DNA of 64,000 nt, from contig JANQQL010000029.1 in NCBI GenBank assembly GCA_028289345.1, positions 1 through 64,000 of the forward strand, read 5' to 3'. Position numbers and translations under genes: made by a program. Shown here piece by piece: positions 7,748 to 19,615 of the stretch. How positions within the stretch are numbered: the first letter of the stretch is position 1; the number at the start of each line of letters is the position of its first letter. The notes under the pieces are model-generated. The model was not told the origin of the DNA and did no database searches. It saw only the letters and a list, made by a program, of their open reading frames with translations. This stretch comes from Planctomycetota bacterium (GTDB taxonomy: Bacteria; Planctomycetota; B15-G4; SIAN01).

Positions 7748-10700
7748 CTAGTTCGCGGAGTCTTCCCCTCCGGAAGGCGCCTTGAGAGCCTTCAACAATG
7801 CGACCACTTTCCGCAAGTTGTTTTGCGTCCTAGCCCAGTCCTGCGGCGTGCGTTCTTGGGTGAATTCCTCAAGGGCCTTTCGGTAAGCACACTCAGCCTC
7901 TTGCAATGCCTGGACATCCCCGTCCAGTTGGCCGCGCACCTTGAGCACAGTGCCCAAGTTGTTTTGCGTAGCAGCCCAGTGCTGCGGCGTGCGCTCTTGG
8001 GTGTATTCTTCGAGGGCTTGTCGGAAGGCAGACTCCGCCTCTCGCAACGCTTGGACGTCCCCTTCCAGCTGGCCAAGCACCTTGAGCACAACGCCCAGGT
8101 TGTTTTGCGTCATGGCCCAGCCCTGCGGCGTGCCCTCTTGGGTGCGCTCTTCGAGGGCCTTTCGGTAGGCAGACTCCGCTTCTTGCAACGCCTGGGCGTC
8201 CCCTTCCAACTGGCCCCGCACCTTGAGCACAATGCCCAAGTTGTTCTGCGTCATGGCCCACTGCTGCGGTGTGCGCTCCTGCGTGTATTCTTCGAGGGCC
8301 TTTCGGAAAGCACACTCTGCCTCTTGCAAGGCCTGGACGTCCCCTTCCAACTGGCCCCGCACCTTGAGCACAATGCCCAGGTTGTTTTGCGTCCTAGCCC
8401 AGTCCTGCGGCGTGCGCTCTTGGGTGTGTTCCTCGAGAGCCTTTTGGTAGGCAGACTCCGCCTCTCGCAACGCCTGGACGTCCCCTTCCTGCTGGCCCCG
8501 CACCTGAAGCACGATGCCCAAGTTGTTTTGCGTCATGGCCCAGCCCTGCGGCGTGCCCCCTTGGGTGCGCTCTTCCAGGGCCTTTCGGTAGGCAGACTCC
8601 GCCTCTTGCAACGCTTCGACGTCTCCCTCAAGCTGGCCGCGCGCCTGAAGCACAGCGCCCATGTTGTTCTGCGTCGTAGCCCATTCCTGTGGCGTGCGCT
8701 CTTGGGTGTATTCTTCGAGGGCCTGTCGGAAGGCAGACTCCGCCTCTCGCAACGCCTCGACATCCCCTTCGTGCTGGCCGCGCACCTTGAGCACAATGCC
8801 CAAGTTGTTTTGCGCCCTAGCCCAGTCCAACGGCGTGCGCTCTTGGGTGCGCTCTTCCAGGGCCTTTCGGTAAGCACACTCCGCCGCTTGCAACGCCTGC
8901 ACGTCCCCTTCCAGCTGGCCCCGCACCTGAAGCACAAGACCCCAGTTGTTTTGCGTCATGGCCCACTGCTGCGGCGTTCGCTTCTGCGTGAATTCTTCGA
9001 GGGCCTTTCGGTAAGCACACTCCGCCTCTTGCAACGACAGGACGTCTCCCTCCAGCTCGCCCCGCACCTTGAGCACAATGCCCAAGTTGTTTTGCGTCCT
9101 AGCCCAGTCCTGCGGCACGCGCTCTTGGGTGTATTCCTCGAGGGCTTTTCGGTAGGCGGTCGTCGCAACCTCGAGAGACACTCCGTCTCCTGCAGTCTGG
9201 CCTAGGTCGGTAAGCCTTCTCGCAAGGTCGCTCAATCGCCGTGCTCCCGAAGTCTCGAGGGGTTCGGGAGTCCGCTCCATCGCTCGCCCGGCGGCGGCCA
9301 CGCAGTCGAGAGACAAGCGCCGAGCTTCGGTTTCTGCAAACCGCTCGGGCTCGATGATTCGTTGGAGCGCGTCCATTGCCCGGCTCCAATCATCTCGAAC
9401 CTCCCCCCTTTCGCGCAGGAAGTCGGCCAGCACTCGGTGCATGGTCCAGTGGGCGGAGCCGCGCGCGTGGAAAAGGAACGATCGACCAACGAGTCGCACC
9501 TCCGATTGACGTCCGCCAAGGTCTCCGCAGATCTCGGTGAGCAGTTTCGCGGGGATCGGTTCAGGGGCGAGGATCGAACAGACCCGTGCCGCAACTCGAG
9601 TTTCCTCCGGCAGGCGTTCGTAGGAGACCGCCAACGCCTCGGTGATCCCTCGCAGGTGCTCTTCCGGAATGGAGTCGCGCAGTGCATCGCATTCACGGTC
9701 CAAGACATCGACCGTGCTTCTTCCGTCCGCGTAACTCAACAACTGGCTGGGATCGAGCCCGTGTTGCAACGCCTGGTGAAGAAGGGTCAATGCCAATGGC
9801 AAGTGCCCCACCCACTCGGTGATTCGATCCCACTCTTCGGCCGAAAGTGAGTTTCCGTTCGGCACTTGGGAGGTCAAGAGTTCTCGAGCGGGGTCTTTTT
9901 CGAGGACGTCTACCGCGAGACCGGCCCCCGCGTCCCCAATGGACCGACGCGAAGTCGCAAGCACGGTCACCCAAGCCCGTCCGGGAAGAAGGTCATCCAA
10001 GGATTTCGGGGGCTGGTTCTTCAGTGACTCGGGAACGTTGTCCAACACGAACAGCTTCGAGCCCTTCTCGTCTCCATGGAGGGCCTGCTCCAGCTCCGAA
10101 CGCACGCTTCGCCCCGCCCGGCGCATCTCCTGAATCGTGGGCAAGGCCGCCGGTCGGAACACGCGAAGGATGTCGAGCCACTGCTGCTCGAGCTGATCCT
10201 CCGACACCTCGGTATCGAGCCAGAACACGCCTCCGGGGTAGTAGGGACTCTGAAACCGCCACAGGTATTCGAGAGCAAGCTGCGACTTTCCGAATCCACC
10301 GCCCCCGGTCAGCGCGCCGGTCAGGGACGCCGATGTTCCCGAGGGTTCTCCCCCGGGCAGGAGAGCATCGTGCAGTTGCTGCATGAGGCGGGCGCGACCC
10401 ACGAAACGCTCTCGCAATGACAACGGCAGCGAAAGCGGATAGACCCGCCCGCGAGGTTCCCGGGGAGGAGGGATCGGCTCCACTCCGGCCAGGGAGTCCC
10501 GGACTTCTTCCAAGGCGTGCAATCGAGACAGTCGCTCTTGGAGAGACGGCCCGTGCTGGTCGCGTCCGGAGGTTCTCTGGAGAACACCCTCGACCGCTTG
10601 CCGAACTTCCTCCACATCCTCGGAACAGGCCAGGTTGAGGGTTTGGATCTTCGGCGGGAGACGAGAGTGGAAGTCGGGAGCGGCCCCCGAAGGCAACACG

Positions 10701-11026
10701 ACGACGAGGGGTTCCAGCTCCTGGTCGCAATCCCTACCACGTTCCCCGCGAGCAAGCCGGATGCGATAGGGCGAGAGAGCCATCTGCCACTCTTTCCAGC
10801 AGTACCATCGATCGAAATAGGTGTCGCTGGCGAACACCACCACGACCTGGCTCGCGAGCATGGCGTCGGCAATTCGCTTGGGAAACGGCTCGCCGAGAGG
10901 AATGTCCTCACGATTGACATCGAGGAATGTTCGATCAGAGCCCAGCGCCTCCTGCAACGCGCGCGCAGACTCGCTCGAGACCGAGCGCGCATAGGAGAGG
11001 AAAACCTGTTTTGCAGAACGGTTCAT
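7748..11026 (-). CDS. TIR domain / NB-ARC-type STAND NTPase / TPR protein
   Basis: N-term 'KQVFLSYARSVSSESARALQEALGSDRTFLDVNREDIPLGEPFPKRIADAMLASQVVVVFASDTYFDRWYCWKEW' (TIR-like); P-loop 'GGGGFGKSQLALEYLWRF'; 'KLFVLDNV' Walker-B-like; ten C-terminal TPR-like units. Start moved to ATG at 11026 (MNRSAKQ). Confidence 0.85.
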   Translation of the reverse strand: MNRSAKQVFLSYARSVSSESARALQEALGSDRTFLDVNREDIPLGEPFPKRIADAMLASQVVVVFASDTYFDRWYCWKEWQMALSPYRIRLARGERGRDCDQELEPLVVVLPSGAAPDFHSRLPPKIQTLNLACSEDVEEVRQAVEGVLQRTSGRDQHGPSLQERLSRLHALEEVRDSLAGVEPIPPPREPRGRVYPLSLPLSLRERFVGRARLMQQLHDALLPGGEPSGTSASLTGALTGGGGFGKSQLALEYLWRFQSPYYPGGVFWLDTEVSEDQLEQQWLDILRVFRPAALPTIQEMRRAGRSVRSELEQALHGDEKGSKLFVLDNVPESLKNQPPKSLDDLLPGRAWVTVLATSRRSIGDAGAGLAVDVLEKDPARELLTSQVPNGNSLSAEEWDRITEWVGHLPLALTLLHQALQHGLDPSQLLSYADGRSTVDVLDRECDALRDSIPEEHLRGITEALAVSYERLPEETRVAARVCSILAPEPIPAKLLTEICGDLGGRQSEVRLVGRSFLFHARGSAHWTMHRVLADFLRERGEVRDDWSRAMDALQRIIEPERFAETEARRLSLDCVAAAGRAMERTPEPLETSGARRLSDLARRLTDLGQTAGDGVSLEVATTAYRKALEEYTQERVPQDWARTQNNLGIVLKVRGELEGDVLSLQEAECAYRKALEEFTQKRTPQQWAMTQNNWGLVLQVRGQLEGDVQALQAAECAYRKALEERTQERTPLDWARAQNNLGIVLKVRGQHEGDVEALREAESAFRQALEEYTQERTPQEWATTQNNMGAVLQARGQLEGDVEALQEAESAYRKALEERTQGGTPQGWAMTQNNLGIVLQVRGQQEGDVQALREAESAYQKALEEHTQERTPQDWARTQNNLGIVLKVRGQLEGDVQALQEAECAFRKALEEYTQERTPQQWAMTQNNLGIVLKVRGQLEGDAQALQEAESAYRKALEERTQEGTPQGWAMTQNNLGVVLKVLGQLEGDVQALREAESAFRQALEEYTQERTPQHWAATQNNLGTVLKVRGQLDGDVQALQEAECAYRKALEEFTQERTPQDWARTQNNLRKVVALLKALKAPSGGEDSAN
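7810..9200 (-). repeat. Ten tandem 141-nt (47-aa) TPR-type repeats within the TIR/NB-ARC gene
   Basis: 'gttgttttgcgt'-type motif at 7817, 7958, 8099, 8240, 8381, 8522, 8663, 8804, 8945, 9086, an exact 141-nt register; protein unit 'RTQNNLGIVLKVRGQLEGDVQALQEAECAYRKALEEYTQERTPQQWA'. Confidence 0.92.
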
Positions 11027-11364
11027 GAATGGGAAGGCGGTGACTTGTCGGCCAGGTATGTGCATCGGCCAGTTATGTGCAAACGTCCCGTGGGCGCTGG
11101 CGAAACCCGTCGCCCTCTGGGCGGAAATCTGCCCAGCCCGAGATCGGGGGAGAGTGTAGCAACGCGCTCGCCAAGTGCACTTCGGAGGAAAGGCGCCGCC
11201 GGGGATGGCGAGCCACGGATTCGGGCGAGATCGCGCGCTCCTCGGGAGAGGCGTTCCCCCGATTCGCCGACTCCGGCCATCTCGAGCCAGGACGCGGGGC
11301 ACGGCGTCGGCTGCCAGAGCACGTCGCGCAAGCTGCGCTGCGAACAGCCGCCGACCACTCCCGT

Positions 11365-13887
11365 TCAATGAAACAAAGGCAAGGGGTGATCCGTGGGCAT
11401 CGGGACCATCGGTTCGGCGCCGTCATTCAGCCAAGCGATCTCATCCTCCAGCTCCAAGGCTCGCTGGATCTGCCCCGCCTGCCTCAACAGCTGGGCGAAG
11501 CGGCTCAAGCCACGGAGGATGTCGTCTTCCTCGCCGGGTCCTTCCCAAAGGAACTCCACGCCCTCATCGATGACTGCGAGAGCTTCTTCGTGTTCGCTGA
11601 GTTGGAGGAGGAGCATGGCGAGGTAACAACGCACTTCGATCGCTTTGAAATGGGCGGGCCCGAATTCCGAGTCCACGCACGCCGCGGCGCGACGCATTTG
11701 CTCGAGCGCTTCGGAAATCCGGTTCTGCTGGAACAAGCAAAGCGCCAAGGAGAACTGCAGCAACCCAATCTCACGGGTCTGGGACCCCATGGTGACGGAC
11801 GCAATCTCCAGGGCCTCACGCAAGATTTGCTCGGACTCGAGGAGCTTGGACTGCTCCATGCACACCTTGCCGAGAAGGCCAAGGATGACCGTCTCTTGCG
11901 GGTGCCCGCTCCCGTATCGTTGGATGAGCAACGCGTGGGCGCGACGCAGGCGTCTCTCCGCCAGCGCGCGCTCCCCCCGCTGGTTGTCCATCACGGAAAC
12001 CCTGACCAAGAATCGCGTGGTGTAGTCCGAGTCTTCCCCGTAAAGAGCCATCGCAGATTGCAACGCTCGTTCGGCCAACTGCCCGCCCTGGTCGAACCGC
12101 CCGAGCAGGTGCAGACACTGGGCGAGTTCGGCCTGGAGGTCAAGGATATCCATTGGGTTCTCACCCGTCTGCTGATACCAGACGATGCACTGGTTCAGGA
12201 TCTCGACCGCGGCTTCGAACTCTTCGGCACCCATCCGAATCGTCGCCCGAAGCCGGTTCGATGCGGTCCGCGCAGCTTCCACCCGAGCCGGGATCAAGTC
12301 ATCCCGTTCCGCGAGGAGTTGATCCGCCGCCGAAACCAGCGCTTCGGCTTCGTCATAGCGGCCACGTTGAATTCTGACCGCCGCCGCCAGCTGCAACGCA
12401 TCCACTCTCCGCCAGGGAAGCGCAAAGGCGTGGTCGCCGGTGACCCTCAACGCCGCCTCCGCGGCCGCCACTGCGCCAGGCAGATGGCCGAGGCTCAACA
12501 TCGCTTTTCCGAGAGTCCGCTGAACGTCACACTCCAACCGGGGCTCGTCCACAAAGAACGACTCTGCCCGAGCATGCGCTTCTTCGAGCATCTCCGAAAC
12601 CGAAGTTCGCGAGCTCACGGACGGCAAAGAGAGGACGTCTTTCAACAGAAACTGCAACACGGACTGGGTTCGCTGAGCTTCCTCGCCGGCTTCGCGAGAG
12701 GCCTGCTCCGCCAGCCCGAGGGCACGACGAGCCTGCTCGCTGGAGCGTAGCGCCGCATTGCGCTGTACCTTCATGCGACGAGATTGAAGAGTCATGCCTC
12801 CCGCAAGCACGATCAACGCCAGAAGCAACAAGGTCGACAGAGTGCTGACCACGGGGTTCCGTCGGACCCATTTGCGGAATTGGTAGGCAACCGTCAGCGG
12901 ATGGGCCAACACCGCTTCGCCACGGAGATAGCGGCGCAAGTCCTGAGCAAGGCCATCCACGGATTGGTAGCGAGCGCGGGGATCTCGAGCCATCGCTTTG
13001 TGGGCGATCGCATCGATCTCTCGGCCAAGACCCGGACAGCGCGTGGATGGCCGTCCGAACTCTCCCCGCTCGATCGCTTCGAGATAGCCGTGAACTCCGG
13101 TCGCGTCGACGAACGGCCGCTCGCCGACCAGGATTTCGACCAAGACGACGCCAAGTGAGAACACGTCGCTGCGGACATCGAGCTGAGCTGCACCGTGGTC
13201 AAAGGTCTCTGGAGCGGCATAGCCAGGCGTCCCGAAGAACTCTCCACTGACCGTGGCATCCAAGGTCCCGGAGTCGAGAAGTTTCGCCAGGCCAAAGTCC
13301 ACAATGCGGGGCTGCTGCTGGCGATCGACAAGGACGTTGGCGGGCTTGATGTCCCGGTGGAGGACTCCATTCTGATGGGCGTGATGAACTGCATCGCAAA
13401 CCTGCAGGAAGGCCTCCAGGATTGCTCGGGAGCCTTGAGTTCGAGCTCGCACCTGTCGAGCCCAATCGGCCAAGGAGATCCCATCGATCCACTCCATGGT
13501 GAGATGGGGAATCCCGCAAATGGTCTCCATCCCAAACACGGTGACGACCCCGGGATGGCGAAGGTTGGCCGCCGCCTCCATCTCGCGCTCGAAGCGCCGG
13601 CGATGGCTGGGTGAAGCAAAGACCCCCGCTTGGAGACGCTTGATCGCGACCAAGCGGTTGGTTCCGCGCTGACGGGCGCGATAGATGATGCCCTGGCCCC
13701 CGCGGGAGACCTCACACACTTCCGCGAACGATCCGAGCAACTCGGGGGGTGGCATGGACTCCGCGCATTGCACCCGGTCCATCCAGCCATCGGCTTCCGA
13801 TGTGAAGCCAAACAGTCGGACGTCCTCGGGGGGAAGCGGCGGCGCACCCTCCGACCAGGGGCCGTCAGGCGGACCACTCTTCATCAT
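11365..13887 (-). CDS. Serine/threonine protein kinase (Pkn type), TM segment and C-terminal TPR-like region
   Basis: 'VSRGGQGIIYRARQRGTNRLVAIKRL', 'GVLHRDIKPANVLVD', 'IVDFGLAKLL', 'GTPGYAAPE'; TM 'VVSTLSTLLLLALIVLAGGMTL'. Confidence 0.9.
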   Translation of the reverse strand: MMKSGPPDGPWSEGAPPLPPEDVRLFGFTSEADGWMDRVQCAESMPPPELLGSFAEVCEVSRGGQGIIYRARQRGTNRLVAIKRLQAGVFASPSHRRRFEREMEAAANLRHPGVVTVFGMETICGIPHLTMEWIDGISLADWARQVRARTQGSRAILEAFLQVCDAVHHAHQNGVLHRDIKPANVLVDRQQQPRIVDFGLAKLLDSGTLDATVSGEFFGTPGYAAPETFDHGAAQLDVRSDVFSLGVVLVEILVGERPFVDATGVHGYLEAIERGEFGRPSTRCPGLGREIDAIAHKAMARDPRARYQSVDGLAQDLRRYLRGEAVLAHPLTVAYQFRKWVRRNPVVSTLSTLLLLALIVLAGGMTLQSRRMKVQRNAALRSSEQARRALGLAEQASREAGEEAQRTQSVLQFLLKDVLSLPSVSSRTSVSEMLEEAHARAESFFVDEPRLECDVQRTLGKAMLSLGHLPGAVAAAEAALRVTGDHAFALPWRRVDALQLAAAVRIQRGRYDEAEALVSAADQLLAERDDLIPARVEAARTASNRLRATIRMGAEEFEAAVEILNQCIVWYQQTGENPMDILDLQAELAQCLHLLGRFDQGGQLAERALQSAMALYGEDSDYTTRFLVRVSVMDNQRGERALAERRLRRAHALLIQRYGSGHPQETVILGLLGKVCMEQSKLLESEQILREALEIASVTMGSQTREIGLLQFSLALCLFQQNRISEALEQMRRAAACVDSEFGPAHFKAIEVRCYLAMLLLQLSEHEEALAVIDEGVEFLWEGPGEEDDILRGLSRFAQLLRQAGQIQRALELEDEIAWLNDGAEPMVPMPTDHPLPLFH

Positions 13888-14455
13888 GGATCTGCTTCTC
13901 AATCAGTCCCTTCAGGCGATCACGAATGCGCTGTTTGACTTTCTCCACTGCCTCTGGAGTCGTGGCGTATCGGGCGGCCACTTCGCGGATTCCTTCTCCA
14001 CGGAGGAGATCGCTGAACATGAGGACACTGCGCGGCTCGAACGACGCCCTGACCGATCTCATGGCAAGGCGATAGTGGTGGTGCATCCACTCTCGTTCCC
14101 ACAACTCGTGGTCGGCTCTGGAAGACGGAGCCATTTCTTCAAGAGCGTGGGAACTCAGCAGCTGGACGCTACGACGTCGCCCATGGTGCTGCCGGATGGC
14201 GTTCTGCACGACCCGCCAGAGGTAGTCGCGGAAGCGCCCGCGCCGGGGCTGATATCGAAATCGAGGAGCCGAGCGCGCCAGATCCATCATGACCGTCTGA
14301 CGAACGTCTTCGGCGTCCGTGAGCTGCAGGCCATGGTAGTAACAGACCCGCAGAACGAGACTTCGGTACCGTTCCTCGAATTCCCGCCAAGCTGCGTGAT
14401 CCGTCCGATCTCTCAATCGAGAGAGCAGGGACGGAGACGTCGTCGGTGATGCCAT
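13865..14455 (-). CDS. ECF-type RNA polymerase sigma factor
   Basis: 'LLSRLRDRTDHAAWREFEERYRSLVLRVCYYHGLQLTDAEDVRQTVMMDLARS...FRDYLWRVVQNAIRQHHGRRR'; start at MASPTTSP; overlaps the kinase start by about 23 nt. Confidence 0.85.
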   Translation of the reverse strand: MASPTTSPSLLSRLRDRTDHAAWREFEERYRSLVLRVCYYHGLQLTDAEDVRQTVMMDLARSAPRFRYQPRRGRFRDYLWRVVQNAIRQHHGRRRSVQLLSSHALEEMAPSSRADHELWEREWMHHHYRLAMRSVRASFEPRSVLMFSDLLRGEGIREVAARYATTPEAVEKVKQRIRDRLKGLIEKQIHDEEWSA

Positions 14456-14530
14456 GAATACAACCCGGTCCTGGCCACGGCGTGACGCAGGACGCTTGGT
14501 CGACGCTGCCAAAACTCGGGCTACCAAAGC

Positions 14531-14854
14531 TCAAGCAGGGCCGTTTGAAATCGAGCGGACTCGCAGTATAGCAACTGCGATCTTCCAGGAGCTCTCGGAC
14601 GAAGTCGTTTCCGCTGAACAAACTTTGGACTCAAGAAAGTTTGAGTTTTGCTCGCAGGAAGCCCTCGCTTGGTCGTTCGACGCAAGCCCCATCCTCTCAA
14701 GCATCAACCACAAAGCGAGCGCTCCCATCAAAACGGTGATCCCGAGAACCCACCACATCCCCGTCCTCACCGGCCAGGGCGGACTCGCGTGGAGAACGGG
14801 CCTTAGCTCGCGGAGCTGATCGGCGTGGGACAGGGGCGCGTCATCAGGCGGCAT
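14531..14854 (-). CDS. Small putative membrane protein (107 aa), accessory or immunity candidate for the peptide exporter cassette
   Basis: Single TM 'MWWVLGITVLMGALALWLML'; 11-nt overlap with the end of the upstream ABC exporter gene. Confidence 0.5.
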   Translation of the reverse strand: MPPDDAPLSHADQLRELRPVLHASPPWPVRTGMWWVLGITVLMGALALWLMLERMGLASNDQARASCEQNSNFLESKVCSAETTSSESSWKIAVAILRVRSISNGPA

Positions 14855-17057
14855 GGTCTTCGAGCTCGAGTTGATTCTTCACCAAGTGGTAGTAGCGGCC
14901 CCGGGCCAAAAGCAGCTCTCCATGGGTTCCGACTTCATCCACGCGACCCCGATTCATGACGACGATGCGATCCGCGTCCTTGATGGTGCTAAGCCGATGG
15001 GCGACCACCAAAACGCTTTTCCCGAGAAAGAACCGACGCAGGTTTCTCATGACTAAGCGCTCGGTGGCAGCATCAAGGGAACTGGTTGCTTCATCGAAGA
15101 ACAGATAGTCAGGGTTCTTGTACACCGCTCGGGCGATCAGAAGGCGCTGACGCTCCCCACCGCTCATCTGAAATCCGTTCGGGCCAACCGGGGTCTCGTA
15201 GCCCTGCGGAAGCCTCTCAATGAACTCGTGAAGGCATGCCACTCGAGCCGCGGCGACCAGGCGTTTCGGGTCCTGATCTCTGCCAAGGGCGATGTTGGCA
15301 GCAATCGAGTTGGAGAACAGGAAGCCGTCCTGGAGAACGACACCACATCGACGCCGCCAAGCTTGACTCTGGATCGAACTCAGTGCCCATGGACCGACGC
15401 AAACCTCCCCCGAATCGGTCGCGTGGAACTTCAGGAGGATCTTCAGCAGAGTCGATTTCCCACTTCCACTGGACCCCACGACCGCCGTGAACTTTCCGGC
15501 GGCGACACAAACAGTGGCGGCACTCAGCGCGGCTTCTCGATCGGACGAATAACGAAAGCTCACGTCACGCAGGTTCAGATCGAGCGGACGAGGACCAAGC
15601 TCGGCAATCAGGTTCGGGGGATCTTCGTCCGGTTCCCGGCGGACCTGATGAAGACGCTCGAGACTCAGACGCGCGTCTTGGAACGCCCGAGCGAACCGAG
15701 TCATCTGGCTGATGGGCCCCCCGAGCTGGCCCACGATGTACTGCACGGCAAGCATCATGCCCAGGGTCATGTCCCCCTGAATCACGAGATAGGCCGCGCA
15801 GAAGGTAATCAGGAGGTTCTTCAGTTCGTGCAAGGCGAGAGCACCGCCGTCCTGAATCTGGTTCACCCCCAACGAGCGCAGTTTGTTGCGGTGAATTCTG
15901 GCCTGGTGTCGCCCCCAACCTTCCAGTTGGGTTCGTTCCGAACCCGCCAGCTTGATCTCAGCCATGCCGTGAACGAGCTGGATCATGAGGTTCTGTTCTT
16001 CGGACAGGTCGTGGAACCGTTGGTCATCCACCGCTCGTCGACGGCGCCGCCACAACAAGGTCCAGCCGATTGCCAACGAGGTTCCAACCATGAAGATCGC
16101 GAAGATCCAGACGCTGTACGTCAACAACACCGTCCCAAAGACGAGGACGGAAACGCCGGAGAACAGGACATCGAGAGTCGTCGCCGTCAGAAAAGTCTCG
16201 ACTCGCTCGTGATCGCGAATGCGTTGCAGGATTTCTCCCACCCGGCGTCGATCGAAGAAAGGAACAGGCAACCGGGTGAGCTTCATCAGAAACTCCGCGA
16301 CCATCTGCACGTGCACACGCACTCCCAGGTGTAGCAAGATCCATGCGCGCAGAAAGTCGGTGGTGACGCGACCGGCGAACAGCGCCACCTGAGCAACGAG
16401 AATGATCCCGACCCAGTGGAGGTCCTGTTCGCGCACCCCCCAGTCCACCAGGTACTGAGTGAGGAACGGCAAACACAGGCTGAACAGAGCTCCCAACAGC
16501 ACCGCGAGAATCAGTTGCGGCCATGCCCAGGTTTGTCGGCGGAGAAGCTCTTTGAACGGATGAACCAAGGTTCCCAGCGAGGGCACTCCGCCGAATCGCT
16601 CGGAAGAGGAGGGCTGGGTTTCTTCGAAGACCAAAAGCACGCCGCGATCCGTGGCACGACCGTCGACACAGGACAGCCAGCGAGCGAGGAACTCGTCCAC
16701 GGAACAGCGCCGCCGACCACGCGCCGGATCCGCCAGAAGTACGGAGCCGCGCCGCCAACCGTACACCACAACGAAATGCGACTCGTCCGGCAGGTGAGCG
16801 ATGCATGGGAGAGGAGTTTTCTCGAGCGCCTCCGCAGTCAGACGAAACGCGGAACCATGGAGTCCGATCTCCCGACCAGCCCGAGCAAGGGCTTCCAGGG
16901 AGGCACCGGACCGGGCCGTTTGGCAGCGTTGTTCCCAGGAGGTCCCCCCCTCGTCAAGTCCATAGTGGCGAGCAATCATCCGCAGGCAGGTGGCACCACA
17001 ATCGGTGCCGCCTCTCTGCAGAAGAACCGGGAATCGCCCCATCCTGCGCCCGATCAT
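14844..17057 (-). CDS. Peptidase-containing ABC transporter (C39 peptidase + ABC TM + ATPase), bacteriocin/double-Gly peptide exporter type
   Basis: C39 motif 'LLQRGGTDCGATCLRMIARHYG', 'ESHFVVVYGW', 'LADPARG'; Walker A 'GSSGSGKSTLLK', signature 'MSGGERQRLLIARAV', Walker B 'YLFFDEATSSLD'. Confidence 0.93.
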   Translation of the reverse strand: MIGRRMGRFPVLLQRGGTDCGATCLRMIARHYGLDEGGTSWEQRCQTARSGASLEALARAGREIGLHGSAFRLTAEALEKTPLPCIAHLPDESHFVVVYGWRRGSVLLADPARGRRRCSVDEFLARWLSCVDGRATDRGVLLVFEETQPSSSERFGGVPSLGTLVHPFKELLRRQTWAWPQLILAVLLGALFSLCLPFLTQYLVDWGVREQDLHWVGIILVAQVALFAGRVTTDFLRAWILLHLGVRVHVQMVAEFLMKLTRLPVPFFDRRRVGEILQRIRDHERVETFLTATTLDVLFSGVSVLVFGTVLLTYSVWIFAIFMVGTSLAIGWTLLWRRRRRAVDDQRFHDLSEEQNLMIQLVHGMAEIKLAGSERTQLEGWGRHQARIHRNKLRSLGVNQIQDGGALALHELKNLLITFCAAYLVIQGDMTLGMMLAVQYIVGQLGGPISQMTRFARAFQDARLSLERLHQVRREPDEDPPNLIAELGPRPLDLNLRDVSFRYSSDREAALSAATVCVAAGKFTAVVGSSGSGKSTLLKILLKFHATDSGEVCVGPWALSSIQSQAWRRRCGVVLQDGFLFSNSIAANIALGRDQDPKRLVAAARVACLHEFIERLPQGYETPVGPNGFQMSGGERQRLLIARAVYKNPDYLFFDEATSSLDAATERLVMRNLRRFFLGKSVLVVAHRLSTIKDADRIVVMNRGRVDEVGTHGELLLARGRYYHLVKNQLELEDHAA

Positions 17058-18688
17058 TCTGAGTCGGTCGCCAAGCCGTTCAGCAAGAACGCCAAATCAC
17101 TCAGCTCCACCGTGGCCGGAATCTTTCGTCCATCGAAGAAGTAGGTGGGTGTGCCTCGGAGCCCCGAGGCCACCGCCCATTCCTGCATCGTGTCCCACGC
17201 GGCTTTCACTTCTGGGTCATGAGGCGATCGGGAATCGGTTGCCGCAGCTCCGCCAGGAACGAAAGCCTCCGTGAGAGCCCGCCTCGCCCGGACCGAGTCA
17301 CCGGCGAGCTGATGCACAAGGATCGGTTCGACTGCCTGAAAGGAGCCGAGCTGTTGTTGCTGACCAAAGAATCGAAACCGAAGTTTCAGCAGAGCGGGAA
17401 ACCGCTGCACCAGGGCCTGCACCTGGCGGTGGGCCCGTCGACAGTGACCGCAATGAGGATGGGTGATGACAAGGAGCTCGTGGGCGGCCGTCGCATCGCC
17501 AATCTCGACATCCCCCGCCAAACAGGGGAGATCCACCGCGGGAACCTGTTCGAGCAACGCGCGGAGCACCACCGGATCTTGGCGCAATCGCCGATATTGA
17601 TAGCGCCAGCGTTCCGACTCTCGAGAACGTTGAACCGTCGATCGAAGAAACAGCCATGCCCCAGCGACCAAGCAGAACCCCGACAATGCGATCGAGGGGG
17701 CAGCGATTGTCGTTTCGAGTAGGGAGCCACTCGCCAGCACGAACCACACGACTTGAGCAATCACGACGGTTTGGACGGCCGAACAGAGGATGCACCACGA
17801 TCGCAGCACAACGCCCTGGTAGTACAAAGAGAACACCGAATAAGGGGTCGCGGCAACACTCAGAACGGCCACCCAAACTGCCACAGGCTCTAGGATTGAG
17901 GGAAGACTCGCAATCACGAGGGCCAAACCACCGCCCGCGAAATACATCGCTCCCCATTCCCCCATGGACACCCCCAAGAAGGATGCCGCCGAAGAACGCA
18001 GCACTTTCTGGCAACCGGAGTTCTTCCGTGTCGAGCAGATCCGGTCGATGAGGGGAAGCGAGCGATCGCGCTGCAACTGCAGCAGGGCGATGCTGAGCCC
18101 CCCTCCGATGATCTGGAGAGCGAACAACGACCAGAGCCGTCCATTCGCCCCCGCGGCAATCGCGAATGACGAGAAAGCAAGGAGAGCAAGCACCGAGGCG
18201 GCGACCCAAGCGACCCACTGACGCGCCCGCTCCTGGCGTTCCCGGCGCCGCTGCAGTTCAAAATCCCGTTCGCCGGCAGATTGTGCCGGAGGATCCAGAA
18301 CCAGGGTTGCGCCCGAGCTTTGGGCAAGGAAGTCCGCTCGTGGCACATCGTTCCAACCGGACGAGGGATCGAGCACTCGAAAGCCACCAGCATCGACGCG
18401 TTGGACGATCACAAAGCGACCCCCGTCGTCGTGAAGGTGGACCAACGCCGGTAGGGGGATTTGATCCCAGAGAGCATCGTCCACGCGAAACGCGGCGGCC
18501 GTGAGCCCCCAATCGTGCAGCGCGTCCCTCGCCGCCCCGAGACTGGGATAGCGGGGATGCGAACGGATCGTCTCGGCGGTTGTGGCTTGAGTCACCGACA
18601 CACCGCTCAAGGCGAGTAAGTTGTAGACGGCAGTCTCGAGATTCTCGTCCGGGACTCTCTGACGGCGCCAGCGTGAGTTGATTTGCAT
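17054..18688 (-). CDS. C39-like (no catalytic Cys) / VKOR (DsbB-like) / thioredoxin (DsbA-like) fusion oxidase
   Basis: N-term C39-like fold segment 'LETAVYNLLALSGVSV...PLPALVHLHDDGGRFVIVQRVDAGGFRVLDPSSGWNDVP'; VKOR 'SGCQKVLRSSAASFLGVSMGEWGAMYFAGG' and 'LRSWCILCSAVQ'; thioredoxin-like 'THPHCGHCRRAHRQVQALV'; ATGA overlap with the exporter. Confidence 0.85.
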   Translation of the reverse strand: MQINSRWRRQRVPDENLETAVYNLLALSGVSVTQATTAETIRSHPRYPSLGAARDALHDWGLTAAAFRVDDALWDQIPLPALVHLHDDGGRFVIVQRVDAGGFRVLDPSSGWNDVPRADFLAQSSGATLVLDPPAQSAGERDFELQRRRERQERARQWVAWVAASVLALLAFSSFAIAAGANGRLWSLFALQIIGGGLSIALLQLQRDRSLPLIDRICSTRKNSGCQKVLRSSAASFLGVSMGEWGAMYFAGGGLALVIASLPSILEPVAVWVAVLSVAATPYSVFSLYYQGVVLRSWCILCSAVQTVVIAQVVWFVLASGSLLETTIAAPSIALSGFCLVAGAWLFLRSTVQRSRESERWRYQYRRLRQDPVVLRALLEQVPAVDLPCLAGDVEIGDATAAHELLVITHPHCGHCRRAHRQVQALVQRFPALLKLRFRFFGQQQQLGSFQAVEPILVHQLAGDSVRARRALTEAFVPGGAAATDSRSPHDPEVKAAWDTMQEWAVASGLRGTPTYFFDGRKIPATVELSDLAFLLNGLATDSE

Positions 18689-18889
18689 TCCAGTCGTCGA
18701 GAGAAACAAGAGGGGAAGTTTCTCGATGCCGCCAGCTTCGACTCCCAGGACAGCGGCTACGCCAGGGCAGCGTCATCGCAACGCAGATTGCCGAACCTGA
18801 CAGCCGAAGGGGCTGGCGACACCGAGACAGCACTGTGCATGAAATGAACCAGCCCGACCGAAACTCCGGGACGAGCCAGGCTCACGTCA

Positions 18890-19090
18890 CTAGCAGTTGT
18901 ACTGGATACAAATGTTGTAGATGTTGTCGCACTGGTGCGGACGTCCGCCGCAGGACAAGCAGCCCTGACGCTCTTCTTCGCACATGTCTTCGCAGCTTCC
19001 CGAGGCGCCGCGGAACGAAGTCATTTCGTTCTGGCTCAGTTCGGTGGTTCCCGGCAGCGCACGGAGTTCGTCGAGAGTCAGCTTCTTCAT
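18890..19090 (-). CDS. Candidate secreted peptide precursor: double-Gly-type leader + 7-Cys core
   Basis: 'MKKLTLDELRALPGTTELSQNEMTSFRGASGSCEDMCEEERQGCLSCGGRPHQCDNIYNICIQYNC'; SD 'GAGGAAATC-ATG'; immediately upstream of the VKOR fusion and C39 exporter. Confidence 0.8.
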   Translation of the reverse strand: MKKLTLDELRALPGTTELSQNEMTSFRGASGSCEDMCEEERQGCLSCGGRPHQCDNIYNICIQYNC

Positions 19091-19615
19091 GATTTCCTCG
19101 CTAGAGAATGAAAGCAGAACATTGCCGACAGTCGACGCAGCGGATCACCCCGCCTTTCGATCGTCCGGCAACACTCGGTGAAGCCCAAGGCTCGTTCCGA
19201 GGAACCCTCGGGCATCAACGTCAGCGGGGCTCTATGGACCGCGCGCCGGATTTCGGACGGCACTGTTCAAAAATCAGCAGAAATTTCATGCGGCATTGCC
19301 GCTCGGCGGCTTTCCCGACCCGCGAACGACGGAAGCGACTCGAGCTCTCACGCGGTTCTTTGCCGGGCTCATGACAGGCGGCGCGGTTCCGCCCACCGCT
19401 CCCCCCCCATCCCTTGCCGCCGATCGCCGCCCGCTGGATCAACGAGCCGTTGTCTGCAATCCGTTGGTCGCTGACTTTCCTCTCGGAGCCTTGGATCCGG
19501 GATTCAGAGCATCGATCCGGGACGCGCCACTGTTTTCCACCTCCCGGGTCAATGAGTTCAAGAGCGAAGAACGTGGACTCCACCACAGCTCGGTGAGGCG
19601 ACTTCGCAGAACGAC

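Follow-up and report, generated by a model that had tools for sequence, protein, structure and literature searches.

A predicted inverted VKOR fusion oxidase in a double-glycine peptide cassette of a planctomycete, with relatives in Bacteroidota

Four neighboring genes on the minus strand of a Planctomycetota contig raise the question of how, and on which side of the membrane, a small cysteine-rich peptide with an export leader would be oxidized. The window, meaning the whole 64,000-nucleotide stretch that was analyzed, covers positions 1 to 64,000 of contig JANQQL010000029.1 (assembly GCA_028289345.1). An ORF check found the precursor, the fusion, the C39 exporter, and a small transmembrane (TM) ORF where the initial annotation had placed them, and the 4-nt overlap it described between the two large genes was seen for the fusion and the exporter. 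The features of the cassette are as follows.

19095..19099, minus strand: Shine-Dalgarno-like GAGGA, 4 nt before the precursor ATG; read from the sequence
18890..19090, minus strand: precursor gene, 66 aa; leader MKKLTLDELRALPGTTELSQNEMTSFRGA, core SGSCEDMCEEERQGCLSCGGRPHQCDNIYNICIQYNC; weak TIGR04149 leader match; GC3 0.76
19004..19090, minus strand: leader-coding part, 29 codons; predicted C39 cleavage after Gly-Ala, from a motif common to the second cassette of this genome (L009) and Bacteroidota precursors
17054..18709, minus strand: C39-like/VKOR/DsbA-type fusion, 551 aa, six predicted TM helices
18290..18652, minus strand: degenerate C39-like domain, fusion residues 20-140; Asn23 at the catalytic Cys position, Arg98 at the His position
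17744..18130, minus strand: VKOR domain of the fusion; C225, C233, C306-x-x-C309
17075..17512, minus strand: DsbA/thioredoxin-type domain of the fusion; C420-x-x-C423, cis-Pro521
14844..17057, minus strand: peptidase-containing ABC exporter (PCAT), 737 aa; intact C39 triad C20/H94/D110 and ATPase motifs
14531..14854, minus strand: small TM ORF, 107 aa; residues 1-55 (about 14690-14854) are a probable HlyD-type adaptor remnant

The GC content of the cassette (0.60-0.62) is close to that of its surroundings, and recent transfer was not shown by base composition. A search of Rfam gave no match to a riboswitch or other RNA, no promoter-like site was found, and terminator-like sites occurred at chance level.

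The precursor proved to be the double-Gly-type peptide that had been proposed, with a 29-aa leader ending in Gly-Ala and a 37-aa core holding seven cysteines. The leader (LSQNEMTSFRGA) fits the hydrophobic/EM pattern of double-Gly leaders, which end in GG, GA, or GS; this pattern is common to the L009 and Bacteroidota precursors, and cleavage at Gly-Ala by the C39 exporter is predicted. A Pfam search with the core found no known peptide family, and a weak PDB match to a nucleocapsid protein fragment (E 0.74) was chance-like and was set aside. Because the leader resembles the TIGR04149 leaders of radical SAM-modified peptides, the precursor could instead be modified by a different RiPP enzyme (radical SAM, lanthipeptide, or graspetide type), with the oxidase a mere helper. 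We consider this very improbable. The TIGR04149 match is sub-threshold (17 vs. a cut-off of 25 bits), and no such enzyme, radical SAM genes included, was seen in either cassette of this genome. Annotated Bacteroidota plasmid neighborhoods recur with TlpA, exporter, and HlyD genes, as do neighborhoods found by profile elsewhere, and the cores are cysteine-rich with even cysteine numbers.

Pfam assigned C39, ABC membrane, and ABC ATPase domains to the exporter, which adjoins the precursor and keeps an intact catalytic triad, as is found in PCATs that export double-Gly peptides. The initial annotation had described the last ORF as a separate small TM protein and had remarked on the lack of an adjacent HlyD adaptor gene. 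No intact adaptor does adjoin the cassette; truncation of an HlyD gene explains this better, and with moderate support we read the small TM ORF as probably what is left of that gene, about 55 codons, in place of a separate protein. A profile of the N-terminal region conserved in 32 HlyD adaptors ('evqeilskkpswllrwG...') aligned with residues 16-48 at 8.4 bits vs. 0.5 for the best of 500 shuffles, and only one of 143 other hydrophobic N-termini ranked higher. Base composition by codon position is coding-like through residue 55 and not beyond. The ORF lies where relatives carry HlyD, and no further HlyD piece was found downstream of it in any frame.

A second cassette with the same gene order, L009, lies on contig 3 of this genome, which comprises 8.4 Mb in 50 contigs. 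Its precursor (leader MRKSLADLRELSAVEPLDETEMKAVRGG, core GGCDGFDFWGFCWKTPCGGCCRNIQTGDVECCCH) has a GG leader and a core with eight cysteines. Its fusion (564 aa) and C39 exporter are 32% and 48% identical to those of the window, respectively, and its HlyD adaptor is intact (454 aa, Pfam HlyD_3). A profile of seven precursors, run over the 8.4 Mb, matched only at the window and L009 places, both of which are within the profile; neither this profile nor a single query found further precursors elsewhere in the genome. With a same-order second cassette and a precursor profile that finds only these two places, the arrangement is more than chance. In the fusion tree, the two copies are sisters (100/97) and stand next to the Agaribacillus copy, although we are unsure of their exact origin because the branches are long. 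At the Agaribacillus locus, the nearest relative in that tree, a 157-aa C39 fragment (L036, 6795-7268, plus strand) is all that occupies the expected place of the exporter behind the fusion, and the precursor has an odd count of nine cysteines.

The window copy may be degenerating: its cysteine number is odd, its leader ends in GA instead of GG, its adaptor is truncated, and its branches in the tree are long. It could be a once functional cassette that is now decaying, has lost its adaptor, and is perhaps silent, which would be compatible with the mechanism that we propose for the family. Besides the HlyD gene cut to about 55 codons, the exporter points this way, with a branch of 2.0 in the window copy vs. 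0.7 in its paralogue. Against decay, none of the precursor, fusion, and exporter ORFs is disrupted, every catalytic residue is retained, and the precursor still has coding base composition. Moreover, HlyD is absent from the four-gene bacteroidetocin cassettes, which nevertheless suffice in E. coli (PMC6671954). We regard decay of the window copy as possible, but as the less probable state of this cassette.

In the fusion, Pfam matched VKOR (1e-12) and C39 (3e-7, starting at residue 63), and it matched Trx/DsbA weakly. Together with its conserved cysteines and the gene neighborhoods of its relatives, these matches support the earlier suggestion that a VKOR/thioredoxin oxidase and a C39 exporter serve a dedicated disulfide-peptide cassette. 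Homology to the Bacteroidota family runs over the full length and includes the HP-x-x-PSL motif, the VKOR cysteines, the CXXC, and the cis-Pro. Of these, the cysteines (four in VKOR, two in the Trx CXXC) and the cis-Pro are conserved in 74-75 of 75 homologues and also in a set of 43 homologues. The N-terminal domain pairs with the C39 domain of the exporter in hhalign (96%), and the AlphaFold2 model (pLDDT 89) has a PCAT1 peptidase-like fold at the N-terminal end (TMt 0.72) and a DsbA-family-like fold at the other. The residues of an active C39 peptidase are absent from this domain, where Asn23 and Arg98 replace Cys and His. Asn occupies the catalytic Cys position in 41 of 75 homologues, and the frequent residues at this site do not include Cys. 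Judged by these residues, the C39-like domain is catalytically dead. Most simply, it would bind leaders, for which C39-like domains of the HlyB type provide a precedent.

Within its own phylum the fusion was found in 2 of 392 genomes, this one and one distant, and the other 13 genomes of the order had none. A plasmid search found it in Bacteroidota only. A genome scan with a 4-sequence alignment returned 72 loci, all from Bacteroidota except one MAG; the same scan with a two-sequence alignment returned no matches. When VKOR loci were fetched from 35 Bacteroidota genomes, which had been selected for holding a fusion, 29 of 30 were the C39-like/VKOR/DsbA fusion. Exporter and HlyD genes are commonly adjacent to it, and TlpA-like genes are frequent. 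Leader-bearing homologues beside VKOR/C39 genes, whose absence from related genomes the initial annotation would have taken as a refutation, occur in many Bacteroidota. A small same-strand ORF with a strict GG leader was found near the fusion at 44 of 75 usable loci, and motif or contig limits account for the remaining 31. The window cassette is an outlying copy of a widespread gene family that is publicly annotated and apparently undescribed; a literature search, subscription papers aside, found no description of a C39-like/VKOR/DsbA fusion.

Two loci depart from the common layout. On a Parabacteroides distasonis plasmid (L032, 8511-10056, plus strand), separate C39-like and VKOR-Trx ORFs, overlapping by 35 nt, stand in place of the single fusion gene, and a GG precursor with six cysteines lies nearby. 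In the same phylum as the window, the gene directly upstream of a distant C39-like/VKOR/Trx fusion encodes a 138-aa precursor that combines a GG motif with a Nif11-like leader (L025, 9416-11703, plus strand), which raises the possibility that this oxidase also serves another class of leader. That distant fusion has the same inverted charge pattern as the others.

Cysteine counts in the cores bear on the chemistry. Among 57 unique cores with at least two cysteines, 53 had an even number (six in 32, eight in 12) and four an odd number (binomial p 3e-12, indicative only since related sequences are among the 57). Cysteine makes up 12.5% of core residues vs. 0.07% of leader residues. Disulfide bonding is well supported by this parity, and the sequences are strong evidence that the cysteine-rich cores pair as disulfides. 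The window precursor follows the family pattern in that it adjoins the fusion and is cysteine-rich, yet its seven cysteines are odd where its own paralogue has eight.

Canonical bacterial VKOR-thioredoxin fusions have five TM helices and a periplasmic Trx domain. The Synechococcus-type VKOR-thioredoxin (PDB 4nv6/3kp9) shares with the present fusion a VKOR with four active cysteines joined to a thioredoxin-fold domain, but canonical VKOR-Trx fusions are without a C39-like domain and the extra TM helix. In the structural model, the six TM helices would put the C39-like domain, the VKOR active-site loops, and the DsbA domain on the same side of the membrane. Which side this is was judged by the positive-inside rule together with the predicted structure, with the topology count anchored on the VKOR cysteines, since an earlier hydropathy-only count lost most canonical proteins. 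Over 74 analyzable fusions, the mean Lys/Arg count was 5.9 on the active-site side vs. 0.84 on the other, and the bias toward the active-site side was positive in 73, negative in none, and tied in one (p 9e-14). Averaged by segment over 75 fusions, Lys plus Arg counts were 4.5/4.2/1.9/5.8 on one side but 0.12/0.13/0.33 on the opposite side. The opposite bias was found in 28 canonical VKORs of the same phylum (2.5 on the active-site side vs. 5.1 on the other; one positive, 25 negative, and two ties). A stand-alone VKOR-like protein (L140) from a fusion-bearing Bacteroidota genome is rich in Lys/Arg in loop 2 and after TM4, and by eye its charge bias looks canonical. The Lys/Arg-poor active-site side predicted for a periplasmic VKOR-Trx enzyme was not what the fusions had.

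By the positive-inside rule, this charge bias and the six TM helices argue that the fusions are inverted, with all redox-active parts in the cytosol, and the 140-residue N-terminal domain, which carries no signal sequence, favors a cytosolic N-terminus. Relative to an ordinary VKOR, the fusion therefore appears inverted, with its C39-like domain, VKOR cysteines, and DsbA domain predicted to be cytosolic. The fusion could instead sit in the ordinary VKOR orientation, with its redox and C39-like domains in the periplasm and oxidation following export, as is assumed for the bacteroidetocin thiol oxidoreductases. That is the orientation of 25 of the 28 canonical VKORs of the phylum and, to our knowledge, of every well-studied bacterial VKOR-Trx enzyme. 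We nevertheless think it unlikely here, since 73 of the 74 fusions have the opposite charge bias and the remaining one is tied, a large signal-less N-terminal domain would need translocation, and a periplasmic C39-like domain would never meet a leader that the exporter removes. Hibender et al. in 2017 (cited in PMC12453122) reportedly described, going by the title, a membrane topology of the Aeropyrum pernix VKOR that supports disulfide formation in two compartments. That enzyme differs in being archaeal and in having no known tie to a peptide leader or exporter.

Our preferred explanation is leader-guided oxidation in the cytosol by the inverted, quinone-linked fusion, followed by C39 cleavage and export, to which we give a probability of roughly 0.65. 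The precursor would be made in the cytosol with its double-Gly-type leader, which the dead C39-like domain would grip without cutting. The DsbA-type domain would then hand disulfides to the core and be re-oxidized by the VKOR domain, with electrons passing to membrane quinone. All of this would take place on the cytosolic face, the fusion being inverted relative to an ordinary VKOR. The oxidized precursor would next pass to the C39 exporter, whose active peptidase would cut after Gly-Ala during export of the core, and the window cassette may borrow the HlyD adaptor of the second cassette. The sequences themselves show the parts, their conservation and co-occurrence, the cysteine parity, and the charge bias, from which leader binding, the direction of electron flow, the cytosolic site and order of oxidation, and the sharing of an adaptor are inferred. 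Against this scheme stands the reducing cytosol, for which a local channel must be assumed. The product is probably an antibacterial peptide, although by analogy this is a guess. For the family as a whole, we judge it on balance probable that these proteins form a large undescribed group of bacterial oxidases, which combine an inverted VKOR with leader-binding C39-like and DsbA-type domains and would make leader-guided, quinone-driven disulfides in the cytosol before double-Gly export.

The closest experimentally characterized analogue is the bacteroidetocins, class IIf bacteriocins that kill Bacteroidales and were described by Coyne et al. 2019 (PMC6671954). A four-gene set of a 5-TM protein, a cysteine peptide, a thiol oxidoreductase, and a C39 exporter was needed and sufficient in E. 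coli, and the peptides ran differently when reduced, a gel mobility that indicates disulfides (PMC6671954). The window cassette likewise has a small GG-leader-type cysteine peptide, a thiol oxidoreductase, and a C39 ABC exporter in a compact cassette, and the minimal bacteroidetocin set likewise includes no adaptor gene. It differs in its peptide, since bacteroidetocins A and B have 15-16-aa leaders and a 42-aa core with four cysteines, whereas the window precursor has a 29-aa leader and a 37-aa core with seven. The separate 5-TM and thiol oxidoreductase genes are replaced here by one protein with C39-like, VKOR, and DsbA parts. Bacteroidota loci annotated as "vitamin K epoxide reductase family protein" (Spirosoma, Emticicia, Hymenobacter, and Aureibacter; plasmids and chromosomes) share the full-length fusion, cysteine-rich GG precursors, a C39 exporter, and HlyD. 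In these loci, however, the precursors mostly follow the fusion and usually have six or eight cysteines, HlyD is intact, and TlpA-like genes are often present. Given the second cassette and these loci, which make up a widespread family, and the similar working of bacteroidetocin cassettes, the idea of a unique arrangement, or of a new peptide class by itself, is not supported.

Bacterial disulfides are usually made only outside the cytosol, which is reducing. If the predicted topology is right, this family would break that rule with a dedicated intracellular route to disulfides, in which the leader peptide marks the selected substrate and the quinone pool serves as the oxidant. It would also explain cysteine-rich secreted peptides in Bacteroidota, which are said to be without general disulfide machinery (PMC6671954). 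The family opens a large unexplored set of cysteine-rich peptides, mostly with 4 to 10 cysteines, that can be listed by a simple genome search, and it is a possible tool for disulfide peptide production. For bench study, the second cassette of this genome and the Bacteroidota copies are better suited than the window copy, which is possibly in decay.

An ECF-type sigma factor and a Ser/Thr kinase-TPR gene adjoin both cassettes of this genome (window 11365-14527, minus strand; L009 6526-9916, plus strand), and such pairs may regulate them. A kinase-like gene is apparently also beside two further C39 loci of the genome (L013 and L014); kinase matches number about 120 genome-wide, roughly one per 70 kb. 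Also in the window, a TIR domain protein carries a long array of near-identical TPR-type repeats (7748-11368, minus strand). The genome has four planctomycete-type PSCyt2 domains, which make membership of Planctomycetota likely, and at 62-74 kb of contig 27 (L010) a C39 ABC exporter lies with a LanC-like protein and a 1103-aa neighbor, which suggests a possible lanthipeptide-type cluster.
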